Shown: piece by piece, positions 17,213-25,511 of the stretch | How positions within the stretch are numbered: position 1 is the stretch's first letter | How the letters are laid out: each line of letters opens with the position of its first letter | Source: Mucilaginibacter sp. Bleaf8 | GTDB lineage: Bacteria; Bacteroidota; Bacteroidia; Sphingobacteriales; Sphingobacteriaceae | Assembly (NCBI RefSeq): GCF_018390515.1 | Contig: NZ_JAHBBK010000001.1 | Coordinates: forward strand, 1,116,001 to 1,180,000 | DNA: 64,000 nt | Direction of reading: 5' to 3' | Program-made: the position numbers and the translations under genes | The notes under the pieces: generated by a model | What the model saw: only the letters and a program-made list of their open reading frames with translations | Told to the model about the DNA's origin: nothing | Databases searched by the model: none

Positions 17213-20200
17213 ATGAGTAGTTCCTATTCATTATCACCAGCCGCTAAAAAAACAACGATAGTTGGCTTTGGTATCATTGTTTGCTTATTAGGTGCATACC
17301 TGTTGTTACGAAACCGCCACAAAGGCAACGTTAACCCGGAGTTTAGCAAATACATAGAATCCTACACGGCGGGCAGCATATCCCGGCGGAGCCCGATCCG
17401 AATCAAGCTGTCTAACCAAGTTGAAACAAGCCATGCCAAAAACGAACCGGTAAAAGATGGTGTATTCGATTTTTCGCCTTCGGTAAAAGGTAAGGCCTAT
17501 TGGGTAGATGCACAGACCATTGAGTTTAGACCTGACGAGGAGCTTAGTCCGGATAAAAATTACGATGTAGATTTTGATCTGGATGCAATAACCAAAGTGC
17601 CCGACGAGTTTGAGAACTTTAAGTTCAGCTTTGCAACGCTTAAGCCCGATTTTACCGTTACCTACAACGGACTGCAATCGGCCACCAACACATCGTTAGA
17701 TAAGATGAAGTTTACCGGCATCATCCAAACTGCCGACACCGAGGATGATGCTAAGATCGAAAAACTGATTTCGGTACGTTATGCATCAGCTACGCCTGTT
17801 ACCTGGCAGCATAACGAGCTTACCCGCACACACCAGTTTACCATCAACAATATCAAACGCCCGGCAGCAACCGGCGCAGAAATGGAAGTAAGCTACAATG
17901 GCGACGCACTGAACGTGGACAACAAAGCCAGCAGCGAAAAGGTGGAAATACCTGCCGTAGGCGATTTCAAAGTACTGGGCATCCGCGCCGTGCAGGACCA
18001 GGAACAGTACGTACTGGTACAACTATCCAACCCGATACTGGTTGGGCAGGAACTGAACGGCCTTGCCGGCATCAGCAACATGGCCGACCCTGCCTATACA
18101 ATTGATGGCAGCACCATTAAAATTTATGCACCCGATAGATTAGAGGGTAATTACACCGCCTTTGTGAATGAAGGTATTGAAGACATTACGCAGAAAAAGA
18201 TCACTCAAGGTTACACTGGCAATGTGTTTTTTGAAAACCGGCAGCCATCGGTAGTTATTCCGGGCAAGGGCGTTATACTGCCGGATTCGGGCCGGTTAAT
18301 GATGCCTTTTGAAGCCGTGAACCTTAAAGCTGTGGATGTAAGCATCATCAAGATTTATGAGAATAACGTTCCGCAATACTTCCAGGCCAATGGTTTCGAT
18401 GGAAATTACCAACTGCGCCAGGTAGGTAAACCCATCATCCAGAAAACTATCCGTTTGGATGACGACAAGGGTTTGAACCTGAATAAGAAAAACCGTTTTA
18501 TGCTGGATATTGATCACCTGATGCGCACCGAACCAGGCGCTATATACCGGGTGGTGATCGGTTTCCGTAAGGAGTATTCTTTATATAACTGTACAGCACG
18601 CCAATCAGGTTCAGCCAAATCCGATAACGAAGAGGGCGAGTATTATGAGGGTAATGAAGGCGAAGATAACAGCGGGCAGATTGATGAGGATGATGACTTT
18701 TGGCAGCGTTATGATAACTACTATCCCGAAGGCTACCAGTGGGATGAGCGCGATAACCCTTGCAATACATCTTACTATACCAAGGAGCGCTGGGCTACGC
18801 GCAACATCATTGCCTCCAATATTGGCCTTATTGCCAAACGCGGCAGTGATAACAGCATGCTGGTGGCCGTTACCAATATATTGGATGCGCAGCCCATGTC
18901 GGGCGTTACGCTTGAACTGCTTGATTACCAAAAACAGGTTATCTTTAAAACCACATCAGATGGCGATGGCCTGGCCCGTTTCGAGCTGAAGCGCAAGCCT
19001 TACCTGCTGGTTGCTAAAAATGGTGATGAACGCGGCTATTTAAAACTGGACGATGCCAGCAGCTTGCCACTGTCTCGCTTCAATGTAGGTGGCGAAACCG
19101 TACAGCACGGCTTAAAAGGCTTTATTTACGGCGAACGAGGCGTATGGCGCCCAGGTGACTCCATATTTGTTTCGTTTATTTTAGAAGATAAGCAGAAGCT
19201 GCTCCCGGCCGATCACCCGGTTGAATTTGAACTGTATAACCCAATGGGGCAACTGTACCGCCGCATTACCCGCACCAGTGCTACAGATGGCTTTTACAGT
19301 TTCCATACCGCCACAACTACATCCTCCCCTACCGGCAACTGGACAGCCAAGGTAAAAGTGGGCGGTGCGGTATTTGAGAAAAACATCAAGGTGGAAACCA
19401 TTATGCCCAACCGCCTGAAGCTGAACCTAAGCTTTAACGGACAGGCTGAACTGACCAAAGGCAACACCACGCAGGGCAATCTGAATGCCCGCTGGCTGTT
19501 TGGCGGTATTGCGCAGAACCTCAAAGCCAAGGTGGATGCGTTTGTATCACCACAAAAAACGGCCTTTAAGCATTTTGAAGGATACGAGTTTGACGACCCT
19601 ACCCTGGCTTTTAACACGCAAACCCAAACCGTATTTGACGGCCGGCTGGATGCCAATGGCAACGCCCCGGTTAATGCCGATATTAATATTGACAAGCAGG
19701 CTCCGGGTCAGCTTCGGGCCAACTTTGTAGTGAAGGTGTTTGAACCGGGCGGCAATTTCAGCATACAGCAGGTTACCCTGCCCTATAATGTTTACAGCGG
19801 CTATGTAGGCATCAAGGTACCTGAAGGCAGCAGCACCATAAACAATATGCTCACTACCGATGCCAACCATAGTATTGATATTGCGGCATTGAATACACGC
19901 GGCCAGTTATGGGGCGGTGCACATAACGTACAAGTTGAGCTTTATAAAATAAACTGGCGCTGGTGGTGGGACGAAAGCGGCGACGAGCTGAGCAACTTCA
20001 CCCAAGACCAATACAACAAATTGATTAAGGTTGAGAACCTGACCTTATCCAATGGCCGCGGCAAATGGAACCTGCATGTAAACAAGGCAGACTGGGGCCG
20101 ATACCTGATACGGGTAAAAGACCTGCAAACCGGCCACTCAACCGGTAAAATCGTTTACGTTGACTGGCCTAACTGGTCGGAGCGCTTGCAGCAGGATAAC

Positions 20201-22810
20201 CCGACCGAGGCAGCCATGATATCATTTACTGCGGATAAGAACAAGTACCGCGTTGGTGAAGAAGCTACCCTGACCATACCTACCGGCGCTAATGGCCGGG
20301 CGTTGATTAGCATCGAGAATGGCAGCCATATTTTAAAAACAGCCTGGATCAATACCGAAAAAGGCCAAACCCGTTATCAATTCAAAATTGAACCGGGCAT
20401 GGCGCCTAATATTTTTGTGAACGTAAGCCTTTTGCAGCGACATGCGCAAACGCTGAACGATTTGCCTATCCGCATGTACGGCGCTATACCGTTAGAGGTG
20501 GAAGATCCGGAAACTATCCTGAAACCGGTGATCACCATGCCGGATAAGATCAGGCCCGAAACGCAATCGGCCATTACCGTATCCGAAGCATCGGGCAAGG
20601 AAATGACCTATACCATTGCCCTGGTGGATGAAGGCCTGCTGGATCTTACCAACTTCAAAACCCCCGATCCGCATTCTGCATTTTATGCCCGCGAGGCGCT
20701 GGGCGTTAAAACCTGGGATTTGTTTGATTATGTGATCGGCGCCTACGGCGGCGGGCTGGAACGCATCCTGAGCATTGGTGGTGACGGTACGGCGGGTACC
20801 AATAAAAACGTATCGGTAAACCGCTTCAAACCAGTAGTAAAATTCATGGGGCCGTTCCGCCTGGGTAAAGGCGACAAGCAAACGCACAAGTTTACCCTGC
20901 CGCAGTATATCGGCTCGGTAAGGGCCATGGTGATTGCAGGGCATGCCGGCAGCTATGGCTTTGCCGATAAACAGGTGGCCGTTAAAAAACCTCTCATGAT
21001 ACTGGCCACCCTGCCACGTGTGCTGGGTCCGTCAGAAAAAGTACAATTGCCGGTTACCGTTTTTGCGATGGAAAACAACATCAAAAATGTAACTGTGCGG
21101 GTACAATCCAACGCCTTCAGCAACCCGGGCAGCAGTTACCAAAAAACGGTAAGCTTTGCCAAACCCGGTGATCAGTTGGTTTCTTTTGATTTGGATGTGA
21201 AGGATTTTGTGGGTGTTGGTAAGGTAAAAATCATCGCCCAAAGTGGCAGCGAAACCGCGGCCTACGATGTGGAACTGAACGTGCGCAACCCTAATCCGCC
21301 GATTACCCGAATTACAGAAAAAGAACTGCGCCCCGGCGAAGTCTGGAGTACAGCATACGCTGCTATCGGCATGGCGGGCACCAACAAAGCCACGCTGGAG
21401 GTATCGTCCATCCCGGCACTTAACCTGTCAAAACGGTTAAGCTACCTCGTGCAATACCCGCACGGCTGTGTAGAGCAAACCACCTCGTCGGCATTCCCGC
21501 AATTGTATCTGGGCCAGCTGATCGATTTGTCGCAACGTCAGAAAGCTGAAACTGACCGTAATATCAAGAGCACGATTGCCCGGCTCAACGGCTTCCAGTT
21601 GCCCAACGGCGGGCTCACCTACTGGCCAGGTTCGGGCGATGCGGATGAATGGGGTACCAACTATGCCGGCCACTTTATGCTGGCAGCGCAGGCCAAGGGC
21701 TACAACCTGCCGGTTGGCTTTATAGACCAGTGGAAACGCTATCAGAAACAAAGAGCCCTTGCCTGGGCGCCCGATTCGCGCAGCTTTTACGGCGCTGATC
21801 TGACACAGGCTTACCGTTTGTACCTGCTGGCACTGGGCCGCGCACCCGAACTTGGGGCAATGAACCGCCTCAAAGAGTTTAAATACCTGAGCCCCGAAGC
21901 CCGCTGGCGACTGGCGGCCGCCTACAAACTGGCCGGCCAGCCCGAGGTAGCCAACCGTATGGTGGCCAAACTGCCAACCGAATTAAAACCGTACAACCAG
22001 CTTTACGGCACCTACGGCTCCGACCTGCGCGATGAGGCCATGATACTGGAAACCCTTACCCTGCTTGGGCAGCGGCAAAAGGCTGCAGGCTTGTTGCGCA
22101 CGGTAGCTACACACCTATCGCAGGATAGCTGGTACAGCACGCAAACCACGGCTTACTCATTGCTTGCGGTTGCGCAGTACTGTGGAGCTAATAAAGCCGG
22201 CAACAAATTACAGTTCAATTTGAACGGTAAAACGACAGTTAACTCGCAATCGTACCTGTGGCAATCGGCACTGGCTGCGAATGGCGGCAGGGCACAACTG
22301 GCTAACAAGGGTAATAATGTATTATATGTGCGCCTGATACAGCAGGGGCAGCCTTCAACCACACAGGATGTGGAATCGCGCATTAATCCAGATGTATTAC
22401 AGATGGACGTGCAATATTATACCATGACCGGTAAGCTGATCGATCCATCAACTCTAAAACAGGGTACCGACTTTGTGGCACAGGTAACGCTGAAAAACCC
22501 CGGACAGCGCGGCCGTTATGATAACATGGCGCTCACGCAGATCTTCCCTTCGGGCTGGGAGATACTCAATACCCGCATGCTGAACAACGATGAAGTGTTT
22601 AAATCCTCGCCGTCCGACTATCGCGGTATTCGCGACGACCGGGTGAACACTTACTTTAGTTTGGGCGAGCACCAGCAGGTTACCTACTATGTAATGCTCA
22701 ATGCGGCCTACACCGGTCGCTATTACCTGCCGGCCACCTATTGCGAAGCCATGTACGATGCCAGCATCAACGCCTTACAAAAAGGCCTGTGGGTTGAGGT
22801 GGTGAAGTAA
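17213..22810 (+). CDS. Alpha-2-macroglobulin family protein with thioester motif
   Basis: 1865 residues. An N-terminal membrane anchor spans about 15-35 (GFGIIVCLLGAYLLL) followed by RNRHKG. There is no lipobox, unlike E. coli YfhM, which is a lipoprotein. Macroglobulin domains fill the protein. The reactive thioester C-V-E-Q is intact at C1419-Q1422 within PHGCVEQTTS. An alpha-helical thioester domain (NGGLTYWPGSGDADEWGTNY) and a C-terminal receptor-like domain follow. Near residues 465-520 there is an unusual acidic, tyrosine-rich insert (NEEGEYYEGNEGED, then IDEDDDFWQRYDNYYP). Bacterial A2Ms trap proteases in the periplasm and are typically paired with PBP1C, as here. The bait region cannot be assigned by eye. 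Confidence 0.93.
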   Translation: MSSSYSLSPAAKKTTIVGFGIIVCLLGAYLLLRNRHKGNVNPEFSKYIESYTAGSISRRSPIRIKLSNQVETSHAKNEPVKDGVFDFSPSVKGKAYWVDAQTIEFRPDEELSPDKNYDVDFDLDAITKVPDEFENFKFSFATLKPDFTVTYNGLQSATNTSLDKMKFTGIIQTADTEDDAKIEKLISVRYASATPVTWQHNELTRTHQFTINNIKRPAATGAEMEVSYNGDALNVDNKASSEKVEIPAVGDFKVLGIRAVQDQEQYVLVQLSNPILVGQELNGLAGISNMADPAYTIDGSTIKIYAPDRLEGNYTAFVNEGIEDITQKKITQGYTGNVFFENRQPSVVIPGKGVILPDSGRLMMPFEAVNLKAVDVSIIKIYENNVPQYFQANGFDGNYQLRQVGKPIIQKTIRLDDDKGLNLNKKNRFMLDIDHLMRTEPGAIYRVVIGFRKEYSLYNCTARQSGSAKSDNEEGEYYEGNEGEDNSGQIDEDDDFWQRYDNYYPEGYQWDERDNPCNTSYYTKERWATRNIIASNIGLIAKRGSDNSMLVAVTNILDAQPMSGVTLELLDYQKQVIFKTTSDGDGLARFELKRKPYLLVAKNGDERGYLKLDDASSLPLSRFNVGGETVQHGLKGFIYGERGVWRPGDSIFVSFILEDKQKLLPADHPVEFELYNPMGQLYRRITRTSATDGFYSFHTATTTSSPTGNWTAKVKVGGAVFEKNIKVETIMPNRLKLNLSFNGQAELTKGNTTQGNLNARWLFGGIAQNLKAKVDAFVSPQKTAFKHFEGYEFDDPTLAFNTQTQTVFDGRLDANGNAPVNADINIDKQAPGQLRANFVVKVFEPGGNFSIQQVTLPYNVYSGYVGIKVPEGSSTINNMLTTDANHSIDIAALNTRGQLWGGAHNVQVELYKINWRWWWDESGDELSNFTQDQYNKLIKVENLTLSNGRGKWNLHVNKADWGRYLIRVKDLQTGHSTGKIVYVDWPNWSERLQQDNPTEAAMISFTADKNKYRVGEEATLTIPTGANGRALISIENGSHILKTAWINTEKGQTRYQFKIEPGMAPNIFVNVSLLQRHAQTLNDLPIRMYGAIPLEVEDPETILKPVITMPDKIRPETQSAITVSEASGKEMTYTIALVDEGLLDLTNFKTPDPHSAFYAREALGVKTWDLFDYVIGAYGGGLERILSIGGDGTAGTNKNVSVNRFKPVVKFMGPFRLGKGDKQTHKFTLPQYIGSVRAMVIAGHAGSYGFADKQVAVKKPLMILATLPRVLGPSEKVQLPVTVFAMENNIKNVTVRVQSNAFSNPGSSYQKTVSFAKPGDQLVSFDLDVKDFVGVGKVKIIAQSGSETAAYDVELNVRNPNPPITRITEKELRPGEVWSTAYAAIGMAGTNKATLEVSSIPALNLSKRLSYLVQYPHGCVEQTTSSAFPQLYLGQLIDLSQRQKAETDRNIKSTIARLNGFQLPNGGLTYWPGSGDADEWGTNYAGHFMLAAQAKGYNLPVGFIDQWKRYQKQRALAWAPDSRSFYGADLTQAYRLYLLALGRAPELGAMNRLKEFKYLSPEARWRLAAAYKLAGQPEVANRMVAKLPTELKPYNQLYGTYGSDLRDEAMILETLTLLGQRQKAAGLLRTVATHLSQDSWYSTQTTAYSLLAVAQYCGANKAGNKLQFNLNGKTTVNSQSYLWQSALAANGGRAQLANKGNNVLYVRLIQQGQPSTTQDVESRINPDVLQMDVQYYTMTGKLIDPSTLKQGTDFVAQVTLKNPGQRGRYDNMALTQIFPSGWEILNTRMLNNDEVFKSSPSDYRGIRDDRVNTYFSLGEHQQVTYYVMLNAAYTGRYYLPATYCEAMYDASINALQKGLWVEVVK

Positions 22811-22835: not shown

Positions 22836-22866
22836 CCGTCATGCCGAACTGGTTTCGGCATGACGG
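22836..22866. repeat. Perfect 13-bp hairpin after the A2M gene (REP-like or terminator)
   Basis: CCGTCATGCCGAA (22836-22848) and its exact complement TTCGGCATGACGG (22854-22866) enclose a 5-nt loop. It starts 25 bp past the A2M stop. There is no T run after it, so it may be a dispersed palindromic repeat unit rather than a classic terminator. Confidence 0.6.
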
Positions 22867-22908
22867 ATAAGGTTATCTCTCATTCCGCATTTCCGGTTCA
22901 CACTTAGG

Positions 22909-22931
22909 TGTACCACTTTTAAAGTGGTACA
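22909..22931. promoter_or_regulatory. Perfect palindrome at the head of the GGWACA array
   Basis: TGTACCACTTT (22909-22919), a central T, then AAAGTGGTACA (22921-22931). The right arm contains the first direct GGTACA of the array and the left arm holds the same hexamer inverted. Confidence 0.6.
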
Positions 22932-23059
22932 AAGCGGAACAAACCGGTACACTCCGGAACAGTTGGTACACTTTGGTACACCCAAAACGCTGTTTGCAGC
23001 ACGCAGGGGCCGTTCAAAAAAAATGGTACACTTTGGAACACCCGGTACAGTTCGGTACA
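22926..23059 (+). repeat. Helically phased GGWACA direct-repeat array upstream of pbpC
   Basis: Ten copies of GG(T/A)ACA in the same orientation begin at 22926, 22936, 22946, 22956, 22965, 22975, 23025, 23035, 23044 and 23054. Neighbouring copies are 9 or 10 bp apart, and the two blocks are 50 bp apart, five times the 10-bp period. GGTACA and GGAACA alternate in part. The array ends 25 bp upstream of the pbpC promoter. I know no named element of this form. Confidence 0.85.
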
Positions 23060-23083
23060 GGTATTTATACTCGTGACACGATC

Positions 23084-23112
23084 TTGTCAGTACCTGAATT
23101 CTATTAATTTTG
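23084..23112 (+). promoter_or_regulatory. Candidate pbpC promoter
   Basis: TTG (23084-23086), 18 bp, then TAATTTTG (23105-23112), matching TAnnTTTG. The chosen ATG is 12 bp downstream, so the leader would be very short. Confidence 0.45.
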
Positions 23113-23123
23113 CCGCATCAATC

Positions 23124-25511
23124 ATGCATCGACGCTTAAAACGCTTATATCAAAGTCCGAAAAGGCTCGCAGCAATCATCATAATCATGATTGCCTTGCT
23201 TGCTTTTTGGCTTTGCTTGCCGCGCCCTTTGTTTAAGCGACCTACATCTTATGTAATTGACGATGATCGGGGGCTGCTGCTGGGGGCCGCCATTGCGGCT
23301 GATGGGCAGTGGCGTTTTCCATATGACGATTCCGTGCCCGATAAATTCAGGCAATGCATTATCACTTTCGAGGATAAACGTTTTACATACCATCCGGGTG
23401 TGGATCCGCTGGCTTTCGGGCGGGCCATCAGGCAAAACCTAAAGGCGGGGCATGTAAGCAGTGGCGGTAGCACCCTTACCATGCAGGTAATACGTTTAGC
23501 TACGCACCACAACCGCACCATCTGGAACAAGCTGCTGGAAATGATAATGGCCCTGCGGCTGGAACTTACTTACAGCAAAAAAGAAATACTGGCGCTGTAT
23601 ACCAGCAATGCACCGTTTGGCGGTAATGTGATTGGGCTCAATGCAGCTTCGTGGCGGTATTTTGGCCGTAGTCCGGCGCAACTGTCCTGGGGCGAAATGG
23701 CCGCTATGGCGGTACTGCCCAACTCGCCGGCGCTGGTGCATCCGGGTAAAAACCGTACCACGTTATTAAAAAAACGCAATCAGCTACTGGATAAACTTTA
23801 CGAGCAGAAGGTGATAGACCAGAGCACTGCCCAACTGGCCAAGCTGGAACCCATGCCCGATAAGCCCTTGCCCCTGCCTCAGATAGCGCCCCACCTGCTT
23901 GAGCGTTTCAAGGCCGAACACCGTGGCAACGGGCAAACCGGTACGCGCGTACGTACCACGCTTAAAGCCGAGCTGCAGCAACAGGTAAGCGATATTCTGG
24001 AACGACACCACCGCGTATTGCGTGCAAACCAAATCAACAACATAGCCGCCGTAGTACTGAATGTGGAAACCGGCGCAGCGCTGGCTTATACAGGTAACGT
24101 TTACCACCCTGACGAAGCGCAGCTGGAAAGCCATGTTGATGTAATAAACGCACCGCGCAGCCCCGGCAGCACATTAAAACCTTTGCTCTATGCAGCCATG
24201 CTACACGACGGTTTTATTTTACCTAATACGCTTGTACCCGACATCCCTACCCAGATTGCCGGCTATCATCCCGAAAATTATGATTTGGGTTACGATGGCG
24301 CTGTTCCGGCATCCAAGGCATTGGCCCGTTCGCTGAATGTGCCTGCTGTAAAGATGCTGCAAAAGTATAAGTATGAGCGTTTTTATGATGTATTGAAGAA
24401 AACCGGCATCAGCACCCTCAACCAGCCTGCCGATCATTACGGCTTATCCCTTATTTTGGGCGGCAGCGAAAACACGTTGTGGGAACTCACGGGGGCCTAT
24501 GCCAGCATGGCCCGGGTGCTAAACCATTACAACCGGCACAAAGGCGGGTATGATGCGGCGGATTATCACTCCCCCGTTTATCAACTTCTGAAAACCAAAA
24601 ATCATCAGCCTGAAAAGAATGGCCTGTTAGATGCCGGATCGATATATTATACCCTGCAAGCTATGGAAGAGGTAATGCGCCCCGGCGAGGAAATGCTATG
24701 GCAGCAGTTTGGCTCCACCCAGCGCGTAGCCTGGAAAACCGGCACCAGCTTTGGCTTTCGCGATGGCTGGGCCATAGGCATCACCCCCAAATATGTTGTG
24801 GGCGTATGGGTAGGCAACACCACCGGCGAAGGCCGCCCTAACCTAACAGGTATCAATACCGCAGCGCCGGTGCTGTTCGAAATCTTTCGCCTTTTGCCGG
24901 TTAGCCGGGAGTGGTTTGCAGAACCTGAAGGCGCACTGGTAAAAATAAAAGTATGCCGCGAAAGCGGTAACCGCGTGGGTGAATATTGTGAACACCCTGA
25001 TGATGCCTGGGTGCCTGCCGCCGGACTCAAATCGCCGGTTTGCCCCTACCACCAGTTGGTACATCTGGATGCTACCGGCAGCTGGCAGGTAACGGCCGAT
25101 TGCGAATCGCCCGACCGTATCCTTAACCGGAAATGGTTTGTACTGCCCCCCTCTATAGAGTATTATTACAAAACAAAAAATTATCAATATCACACGTTGC
25201 CCCCTTTCAGAAATGATTGTGCCGTAGCGGATAAGGCGCAGCCTATGGAAGTGATTTACCCTCGTAATGATGCAAAAGTGTACATCCCCATCGAGGCCGA
25301 CGGCACACGCGGCAAGATGATTTGTAACGCAGCCCACAGCCAGCCCGGCACTAAAATATTCTGGCACCTGGACGACCATTACGCGGGCGAAACGCACGAT
25401 TTTCACCAAATGGCAATTAGTCCGCCGGCGGGCAACCATGTACTTACCCTGGTAGATGCTACCGGCAACACGGTAAGCGTAAGGTTTAGGGTGCTGGATA
25501 AGGAGAAGTGA
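23124..25511 (+). CDS. pbpC: Penicillin-binding protein 1C (bifunctional murein synthase)
   Basis: 795 residues from ATG 23124. An in-frame ATG 51 bp upstream lies before the promoter and adds no signal. One N-terminal membrane anchor (AAIIIIMIALLAFWLCL) is followed by the GT51 transglycosylase with FEDKRFTYHPGVD and GGSTLTMQVIRL. The transpeptidase has the active serine S349 in S-T-L-K, SLN in ARSLNVPAVK, and the KTG box in WKTGTSFGFRDG. The C-terminal roughly 90 residues match the PBP1C-specific BiPBP_C domain. It polymerises and cross-links peptidoglycan at the outer face of the inner membrane. E. coli also encodes it next to the A2M gene yfhM, and the pair is thought to repair walls after protease attack. 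Confidence 0.95.
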   Translation: MHRRLKRLYQSPKRLAAIIIIMIALLAFWLCLPRPLFKRPTSYVIDDDRGLLLGAAIAADGQWRFPYDDSVPDKFRQCIITFEDKRFTYHPGVDPLAFGRAIRQNLKAGHVSSGGSTLTMQVIRLATHHNRTIWNKLLEMIMALRLELTYSKKEILALYTSNAPFGGNVIGLNAASWRYFGRSPAQLSWGEMAAMAVLPNSPALVHPGKNRTTLLKKRNQLLDKLYEQKVIDQSTAQLAKLEPMPDKPLPLPQIAPHLLERFKAEHRGNGQTGTRVRTTLKAELQQQVSDILERHHRVLRANQINNIAAVVLNVETGAALAYTGNVYHPDEAQLESHVDVINAPRSPGSTLKPLLYAAMLHDGFILPNTLVPDIPTQIAGYHPENYDLGYDGAVPASKALARSLNVPAVKMLQKYKYERFYDVLKKTGISTLNQPADHYGLSLILGGSENTLWELTGAYASMARVLNHYNRHKGGYDAADYHSPVYQLLKTKNHQPEKNGLLDAGSIYYTLQAMEEVMRPGEEMLWQQFGSTQRVAWKTGTSFGFRDGWAIGITPKYVVGVWVGNTTGEGRPNLTGINTAAPVLFEIFRLLPVSREWFAEPEGALVKIKVCRESGNRVGEYCEHPDDAWVPAAGLKSPVCPYHQLVHLDATGSWQVTADCESPDRILNRKWFVLPPSIEYYYKTKNYQYHTLPPFRNDCAVADKAQPMEVIYPRNDAKVYIPIEADGTRGKMICNAAHSQPGTKIFWHLDDHYAGETHDFHQMAISPPAGNHVLTLVDATGNTVSVRFRVLDKEK

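Follow-up and report, generated by a model that had tools for sequence, protein, structure and literature searches.

Why does the intergenic space between an alpha-2-macroglobulin gene and pbpC in Mucilaginibacter sp. Bleaf8 carry ten GGWACA hexamers, all in one orientation? The locus lies in a 64,000-nucleotide stretch of contig NZ_JAHBBK010000001.1 (positions 1,116,001 to 1,180,000), hereafter the window. Pfam identified the upstream neighbour as a bacterial alpha-2-macroglobulin (A2M; 17213-22810, plus strand, 1865 amino acids) and the downstream one as PBP1C (23124-25511, plus strand), with Transgly, Transpeptidase and BiPBP_C matches on 23073-25511; the pbpC frame is open from 23073, and its likely start, read from the sequence, is the ATG at 23124. 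The preliminary description of the locus proposed a helically phased operator controlling pbpC under envelope stress, but left room for an unusual non-coding repeat that arose in some other way. The latter proved the better guess. We put at about 55% the probability that the array is one copy of a population of ~187-bp intergenic elements with a cognate ATPase gene, and not a dedicated pbpC operator.

The array itself was located as first described. Six hexamers start at 22926, 22936, 22946, 22956, 22965 and 22975 (block 1, 22926-22980) and four at 23025, 23035, 23044 and 23054 (block 2, 23025-23059), all on the plus strand, with successive steps of 10, 10, 10, 9, 10, 50, 10, 9 and 10 bp. The second-densest 210-bp stretch of the window has two GGWACA hexamers, and the maxima in 30 first-order Markov sequences, generated as a chance control, were one to three. 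The claim that all hexamers face one side of the helix holds roughly and not exactly, as their phase drifts by ~3.5 bp across the first block at 10.5 bp per turn. A left-end inverted repeat, TGTACCACTTT-T-AAAGTGGTACA (22909-22931; 11-bp arms, 1-nt centre), opens the array and combines an inverted hexamer TGTWCC with hexamer 1. From the array end at 23059 it is 25 bp to the TTG (23084) of a promoter-like TTG-N18-TAATTTTG (23084-23112, plus strand), which was read from the sequence.

Within the Bleaf8 genome (5,030,006 bases, 17 contigs), blastn with a 181-base query gave 35 matches: the window copy, 20 others at 83-92% identity, 11 self-matches of the palindrome and three matches of 16-19 bases. 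In 20 of the 21 copies the match begins no later than query position 15 and runs to the last base; in the other it covers 24-176 of 181. Hexamer pairs numbered 112 on the forward and 54 on the reverse strand, where the reversed pattern, as a control, gave 4 on each. An oriented alignment of the 21 copies places the unit at 22907-23093 (plus strand, ~187 bp) instead of the 22909-23112 given previously, so that the promoter TTG lies inside the element and TAATTTTG outside. Its layout is GG at 22907, the inverted hexamer (present in 20 of 21 copies), six hexamers, a linker (22981-23024), four hexamers, GGTATTTATACTC, a right-end palindrome TGACA-N6-TGTCA (23074-23089, TGACACGATCTTGTCA) and GTAC up to 23093. 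Mean pairwise difference among the copies is 0.037 in the hexamers, 0.128 between them, 0.079 at the right end and 0.234 in the linker, the most variable inner part of the element, which forms a palindromic stem in some copies; the flanks differ at 0.71-0.72. All 21 copies are intergenic by mechanical ORF lists, and the small ORFs that overlap some of them are in our judgement artefacts of the repeats.

The surroundings of these copies bear directly on the control of pbpC. Fourteen proteins encoded near them were scanned with Pfam and had no common theme (Mg-chelatase, AdoHcyase, an M13 peptidase, GH3, an ABC transporter ATPase and an aldo/keto reductase were among them). The examined neighbours were checked for downstream genes that are conserved or related in function and stand in a fixed orientation; none were found, an outcome that the preliminary description had itself named as telling against its model; both orientations occur. 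The A2M-pbpC stretch was matched, in some cases weakly, in 130 of 149 genomes of the genus, and a hexamer pair was seen in none of the 29 relatives whose pbpC locus was fetched. In the closest relative, G271, A2M and pbpC are syntenic with ~90 bp between the matches and no hexamer pair. The position of the window copy is what speaks for an operator: the likely ATG follows the element end by 30 bp and the array end by 64 bp, and the promoter-like box shares the element's TTG. Because 21 dispersed copies adjoin unrelated genes, no downstream gene is common to them and 29 of 29 fetched pbpC loci are without the array, a dedicated stress-responsive operator of pbpC is hardly credible. An incidental effect of the window copy on pbpC may nevertheless occur, since in it alone, of the 21 copies, a TAnnTTTG box follows the element's TTG at a distance suited to a promoter. 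Such arrays should not be read as operators of the nearest gene; here an apparent promoter switch becomes part of a putative genome-wide system.

A candidate partner gene emerged when 96 loci in seven genomes were compared by their nearest neighbours, 177 in all. In three species, members of one and the same family lie downstream with the 5' end towards the element; they encode an AAA_25 protein whose C-terminus is HTH-like. The Bleaf8 gene (C11:463455-464540, 362 amino acids) is the only homolog found in its genome, and an element copy in the same orientation ends ~240 bp upstream of it. Other recurring neighbours were ABC-type ATPases, which take mixed positions in five genomes, a pair with 63% identity lying upstream in Bleaf8 and G101, and a 74-75% identical gene that faces the element with its 3' end in G186, G258 and G310; unlike the ATPase, none of them has the element steadily at its promoter across three species, and none was retained as a partner. 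The 74-75% identical gene stands on the same side of the element at L102 (G186), L465 (G258) and L469 (G310), and the G186 and G258/G310 site may be common to more distant species. No conserved partner gene was found within 1.5 kb of the ATPase beyond close relatives. The gene next after the Bleaf8 ATPase encodes an AAA_13 protein of 768 amino acids (L053:6064-8370), which does not recur beside the other fetched homologs.

Homologs of the ATPase occur in 100 of the 149 genus genomes. A triple-hexamer pattern was detected in 32 of the 149, with at least five hits in 15, and in 14 of 251 genomes of the family (reversed controls gave 0-2 per strand, with 4 in one genome). Fourteen of the 15 array-rich genomes have the ATPase gene, and the exception, G323, is 88% complete. 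A gene-linked copy in the same orientation was present in all 12 families examined, from 10 genomes; adjacency was read in sequence for ten families and taken from coordinates only for G101 type A and G189 GGAACA, and the array-rich genomes G252, G314, G319 and G337 lay outside this examination. In G327 and G336 the array is located farther upstream of the gene.

Thirty homolog loci were fetched, 27 of them with a usable upstream region. The motif TGACA-N6-[TC]G[TC]CA lies within 1.1 kb upstream of 25 of these 27 genes, a count that has no chance control, and 62-71 bp before the chosen start in 14 of the 25; the palindrome is missing at the gene in G219 and G297. The scan for phased hexamer pairs took in 26 homologs (L548, L558 and L560, with contig-end shifts, and L568 were left out). 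Within 650 bp upstream a pair on the gene's strand was found at 18 of 26, against one on the gene's strand and none on the opposite strand within 650 bp downstream (upstream versus downstream, Fisher p = 1e-6). On the opposite strand upstream, ten of the 26 had a pair, partly the same arrays read backwards. Three homologs had a pair at 800-1450 bp upstream, two of them among the eight with none within 650 bp. The clear hexamer classes beside the gene vary by genome (GGWACA, GGWTCA, GAWACA and GAWACG), and some of the best classes at the 18, such as GGGCCA, may be chance matches.

Most of the 100 gene-bearing genomes are without many GGWACA arrays; genome-wide spread was counted for the GGWACA and GGATCA classes only, and GAAACA and GAAACG are known from beside the gene alone. 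In G189, G304 and G325 the ATPase gene has GGATCA arrays next to it, from which scattered GGATCA pairs were predicted in these three genomes. The counts, each of which includes the gene-linked copy, were 74, 31 and 10, respectively, compared with 0-6 in 17 other genomes, and the reversed control was 0 in all 20. With separate ATPase genes on contigs C1 and C17 and with both array classes, G189 thus holds two systems. Gene and array are both missing from the closest relative, G271, a pattern compatible with loss and with gain alike.

The ATPase protein matches AAA_25 over residues 62-229 above the Pfam cut-off, and HTH_SB, HTH_38 and HTH_23 over residues 319-360, all below their cut-offs; a weak PDB match is to the DNA-binding domain of the Sleeping Beauty transposase (E = 0.019). 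Among phage families it matches DNA primase/helicase and DnaB-like helicase best. It matched no defence model, and a role as a defence gene was set aside. No homolog was confirmed in IMG/VR, and three unannotated 'Bacteriophage sp.' records of a phage collection match at 27-40% identity. Eight Bacteroidota plasmid records hold homologs with 38-41% identity over residues 63-355, including the HTH region, and in this the protein resembles the AAA ATPase of Bacteroides/Butyricimonas mobilizable elements, which we take to be Tn4555-like. In the three plasmid records that were opened, the ATPase gene follows an excisionase-like or HTH gene (in L597 only across the circular start of the record) and precedes a DUF6371 or PG0870-related gene. 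Neither TGACA-N6-TGTCA nor pairs of five hexamer classes were found at the distant mobile-element homologs in four records.

That arrays are bound by the ATPase is the simplest account, since it explains at once why a copy is linked to the gene, why the motif switches and why selection acts in place, as described below. Its HTH may recognise the hexamers, but similarity of the HTH did not covary with hexamer class among 15 proteins when AAA identity was allowed for (permutation p = 0.56), nor did the recognition-helix region (p = 0.27).

Selection was assessed in the sister species G258 and G310, whose flanks are ~86-99% identical at shared loci. From 31 G310 and 29 G258 loci, 25 orthologous pairs were compared. 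Differences amounted to 2/443 sites in the hexamers, 2/197 in the spacers, 5/375 in the left inverted repeat and 17/600 in the palindrome, compared with 190/2184 in the middle (Fisher tests against the middle, p from 1e-13 to 1e-5); the left edge had 30/275 and the right flank 106/472. Seven of the pairs had been chosen by intact hexamers in both members and are therefore biased for the hexamer class; another 17 had been selected on blast similarity to the entire element, and for the remaining one (L495/L460) hexamers guided the choice of the G258 member alone. Left out of the comparison were L472 and L459, neither of which matched the reference, as well as three secondary pairings and any pair whose flanks matched over a short stretch; seven hexamer and three spacer sites, gapped in one G310 copy that is short of a 10-bp unit, were set aside. 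The contrast between hexamers and middle indicates that selection holds the arrays in place and, in this one sister-species pair, acts on the hexamers and the right-end palindrome at fixed loci. The G258 and G310 orthologs have copy-specific array variants in common, as would hardly be expected if gene conversion had homogenised the copies. By eye, four orthologous sites of G219 and G297, with both members picked by intact hexamers, keep three hexamers as the spacers and the rest change. The G258 site corresponding to locus L474 holds other sequence. For the idea that a regulator binds the hexamers, as distinct from the control of PBP1C, this selection in related elements provides indirect support.

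The same data bear on a reading of the copies as plain non-autonomous MITE-like elements that were spread by some transposase, with the copy at the ATPase gene a mere insertion upstream of it. The copies are dispersed, intergenic, lineage-specific and missing at the examined sites of relatives, and a precedent in the Bacteroidota is BrickBuilt, a tandem-repeat MITE of Porphyromonas with 19 intergenic copies in one P. gingivalis strain and a tandem-repeat core plus leader and tail (PMC4596501). The elements resemble BrickBuilt in host phylum, copy number, intergenic location and tandem core; they differ in that the available part of that report describes a 23-nt gapless tandem unit and mentions no cognate gene, whereas here hexamers with freer spacers are under selection in place. 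Several observations make this reading rather improbable: hexamers and palindrome appear selected at fixed loci, with array variants kept in both species; hardly any decayed copies exist, as 20 of 21 are near full length and the rest of the matches are of 16-19 bases or palindrome self-matches; and the gene-linked copy was present in 12 of 12 families. Moreover, Y1_Tnp (PF01797), the only transposase family searched, had no match in the Bleaf8 genome at E<=0.001. The hallmarks of MITEs give a mixed picture. No terminal inverted repeats were seen in the alignment of the Bleaf8 copies, no autonomous copy was among their blastn matches, and no target-site duplication was noticed by eye in their flanks, relatives being too diverged for exact empty sites. 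Type A elements of G101 have inverted TGAAACATGCTGATTATCAG-like arms.

With no Y1_Tnp match at that threshold, a RAYT/IS200 element was also rejected for this genome. Elsewhere, G101, G186, G189 and G219 have three to four Y1_Tnp matches each (best E from 5e-6 to 3e-9); in G189 (C17:105898-107471) a weak one follows the GGATCA-linked ATPase gene at a distance of ~300 bp, and another lies ~2 kb downstream of the G219 ATPase gene.

In the accessible part of the source consulted, RAYTs are single-copy, vertically inherited domesticated transposases, and copies in E. coli are quoted as 96-156 (PMC8049555). As in REPIN-RAYT systems, a short intergenic repeat population within a genome is tied here to its own gene and persists over long vertical descent. 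The differences lie in the partner, an AAA_25 ATPase with an HTH-like end and not a Y1/HUH transposase; in the unit, a hexamer array with a palindrome and not a 20-40 bp REP palindrome; in copy number, ~20-40 against the 96-156 quoted; and in processing or copying by the cognate protein, which characterises REPIN-RAYT and is a putative role of the ATPase. As the defining Y1 enzyme is missing from the Bleaf8 genome, we file the element as a new variant and not a member of REPIN-RAYT, and likewise of the BrickBuilt MITE. The accessible parts of the literature retrieved contained no description of the element or of an array-ATPase pairing. Tentatively, and at less than even odds, we suggest a second, unrelated kind of stably inherited bacterial intragenomic population, in which a host-kept solitary RecA-fold ATPase-HTH protein, akin to the helicase-like gene of Bacteroidota mobilizable elements, would have 20-40 copies of its operator, gene and hexamer would switch together, two systems could coexist, and selection would keep the copies as docking points at which ATPase assemblies organise or insulate the chromosome. 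If the ATPase is the partner of the arrays, this would be the second such repeat population, with a different chemistry, and its persistence could be tested by one gene deletion.

Mechanistically, several ATPase protomers would line up on neighbouring hexamers at intervals of about one helix turn, with assembly starting at the inverted hexamer. The protein would autoregulate through the copy at its own promoter. Other copies, which may have arisen by spread of the gene's operator region, would be dispersed docking sites that today are retained in the service of the host, with chromosome organisation or local insulation as the likeliest function. Direct-repeat arrays of ten or eleven bp are bound side by side in ParR-parC and by PhoP/PhoB, at single centromere or promoter sites, and neither is known to have a dispersed family linked to an ATPase-HTH gene. 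Operators of the MocR subfamily (GabR, PdxR), as presented in the accessible part of the source, combine direct boxes with one inverted box in helical phase, and the boxes mostly carry a TGG or TGT group (PMC5320631). MocR operators are bound by GntR-aminotransferase fusion regulators, and the likeness is in motif alone: two or three boxes at target promoters there, as opposed to 3-10 boxes at unrelated loci here.

A host function in chromosome architecture or replication could also be served by sites of the matS, Noc or KOPS kind, with a reader protein that may be other than the ATPase. Orientation of the copies follows GC skew in Bleaf8 (Mann-Whitney p = 0.0035, post hoc) and at five of five G189 loci, and copies on contig C1 are more evenly spaced than random (p = 0.012 for the CV and 0.007 for the minimum gap, also post hoc). 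Against this, no orientation effect was detected in G219 (p = 0.87) or in G258/G310 (p = 0.37 and 0.75, on loci of 1.7-4.7 kb), two copies on contig C16 are just 31 kb apart, and the elements are missing from most members of the genus. The orientation and spacing signals are mixed, and we consider sites of this kind unlikely.

Action at the RNA level, in which the right-end hairpin and the arrays would work after transcription as a small RNA or terminator, is very unlikely. In the G258/G310 elements the right end forms a long stem containing runs of A and of T, and at stem pair 6 A-C outnumbers G-T by 19 to 1 over the members of both species, as expected for wobble on the reverse strand; over 16 stem pairs, however, the ratio is 43 to 30 among related copies. 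No conserved promoter was seen beside the Bleaf8 copies, whose orientation to genes looks random. A known RNA family was set aside: Rfam returned three matches in six loci, all in L084 and all below the gathering score.

Comparison across genomes indicates that the population preferred here has lineage-specific counterparts, built on a similar plan, in other Mucilaginibacter species. The variants have the left inverted hexamer and the direct array in common and diverge beyond; some G186 copies have TACTGACAAGATCTTGTCAGTA-like ends, and G101 carries two element families. Nothing resembling the element turned up in plasmid or phage DNA. In database-wide array scans, many of the matches listed have a 9-bp period, which in our reading fits in-frame repeats, and such matches therefore say little about spread. 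At L088:5990-6240 in G012, from another genus, a single locus has two blocks of five GGTACA with a 10-bp period; a TIR-domain gene lies ~2 kb away, and no AAA_25 was detected among four nearby proteins scanned. A tandem array in G101 (L137:11402-11836) comprises ~4.4 units of 98 bp, each with an inverted hexamer pair and GGAACA repeats. In G219 and G297 (L076-L087, L477-L494), runs of A and T tracts ~10-12 bp apart were noted by eye 3' of the hexamers; the pattern is kept while the sequence changes and possibly represents curved DNA.

In the window itself, the intergenic space of the array has a separate inverted repeat with 13-bp arms, CCGTCATGCCGAA / TTCGGCATGACGG (22836-22866). The corresponding place in the relative locus L153 is occupied by a different long inverted repeat.
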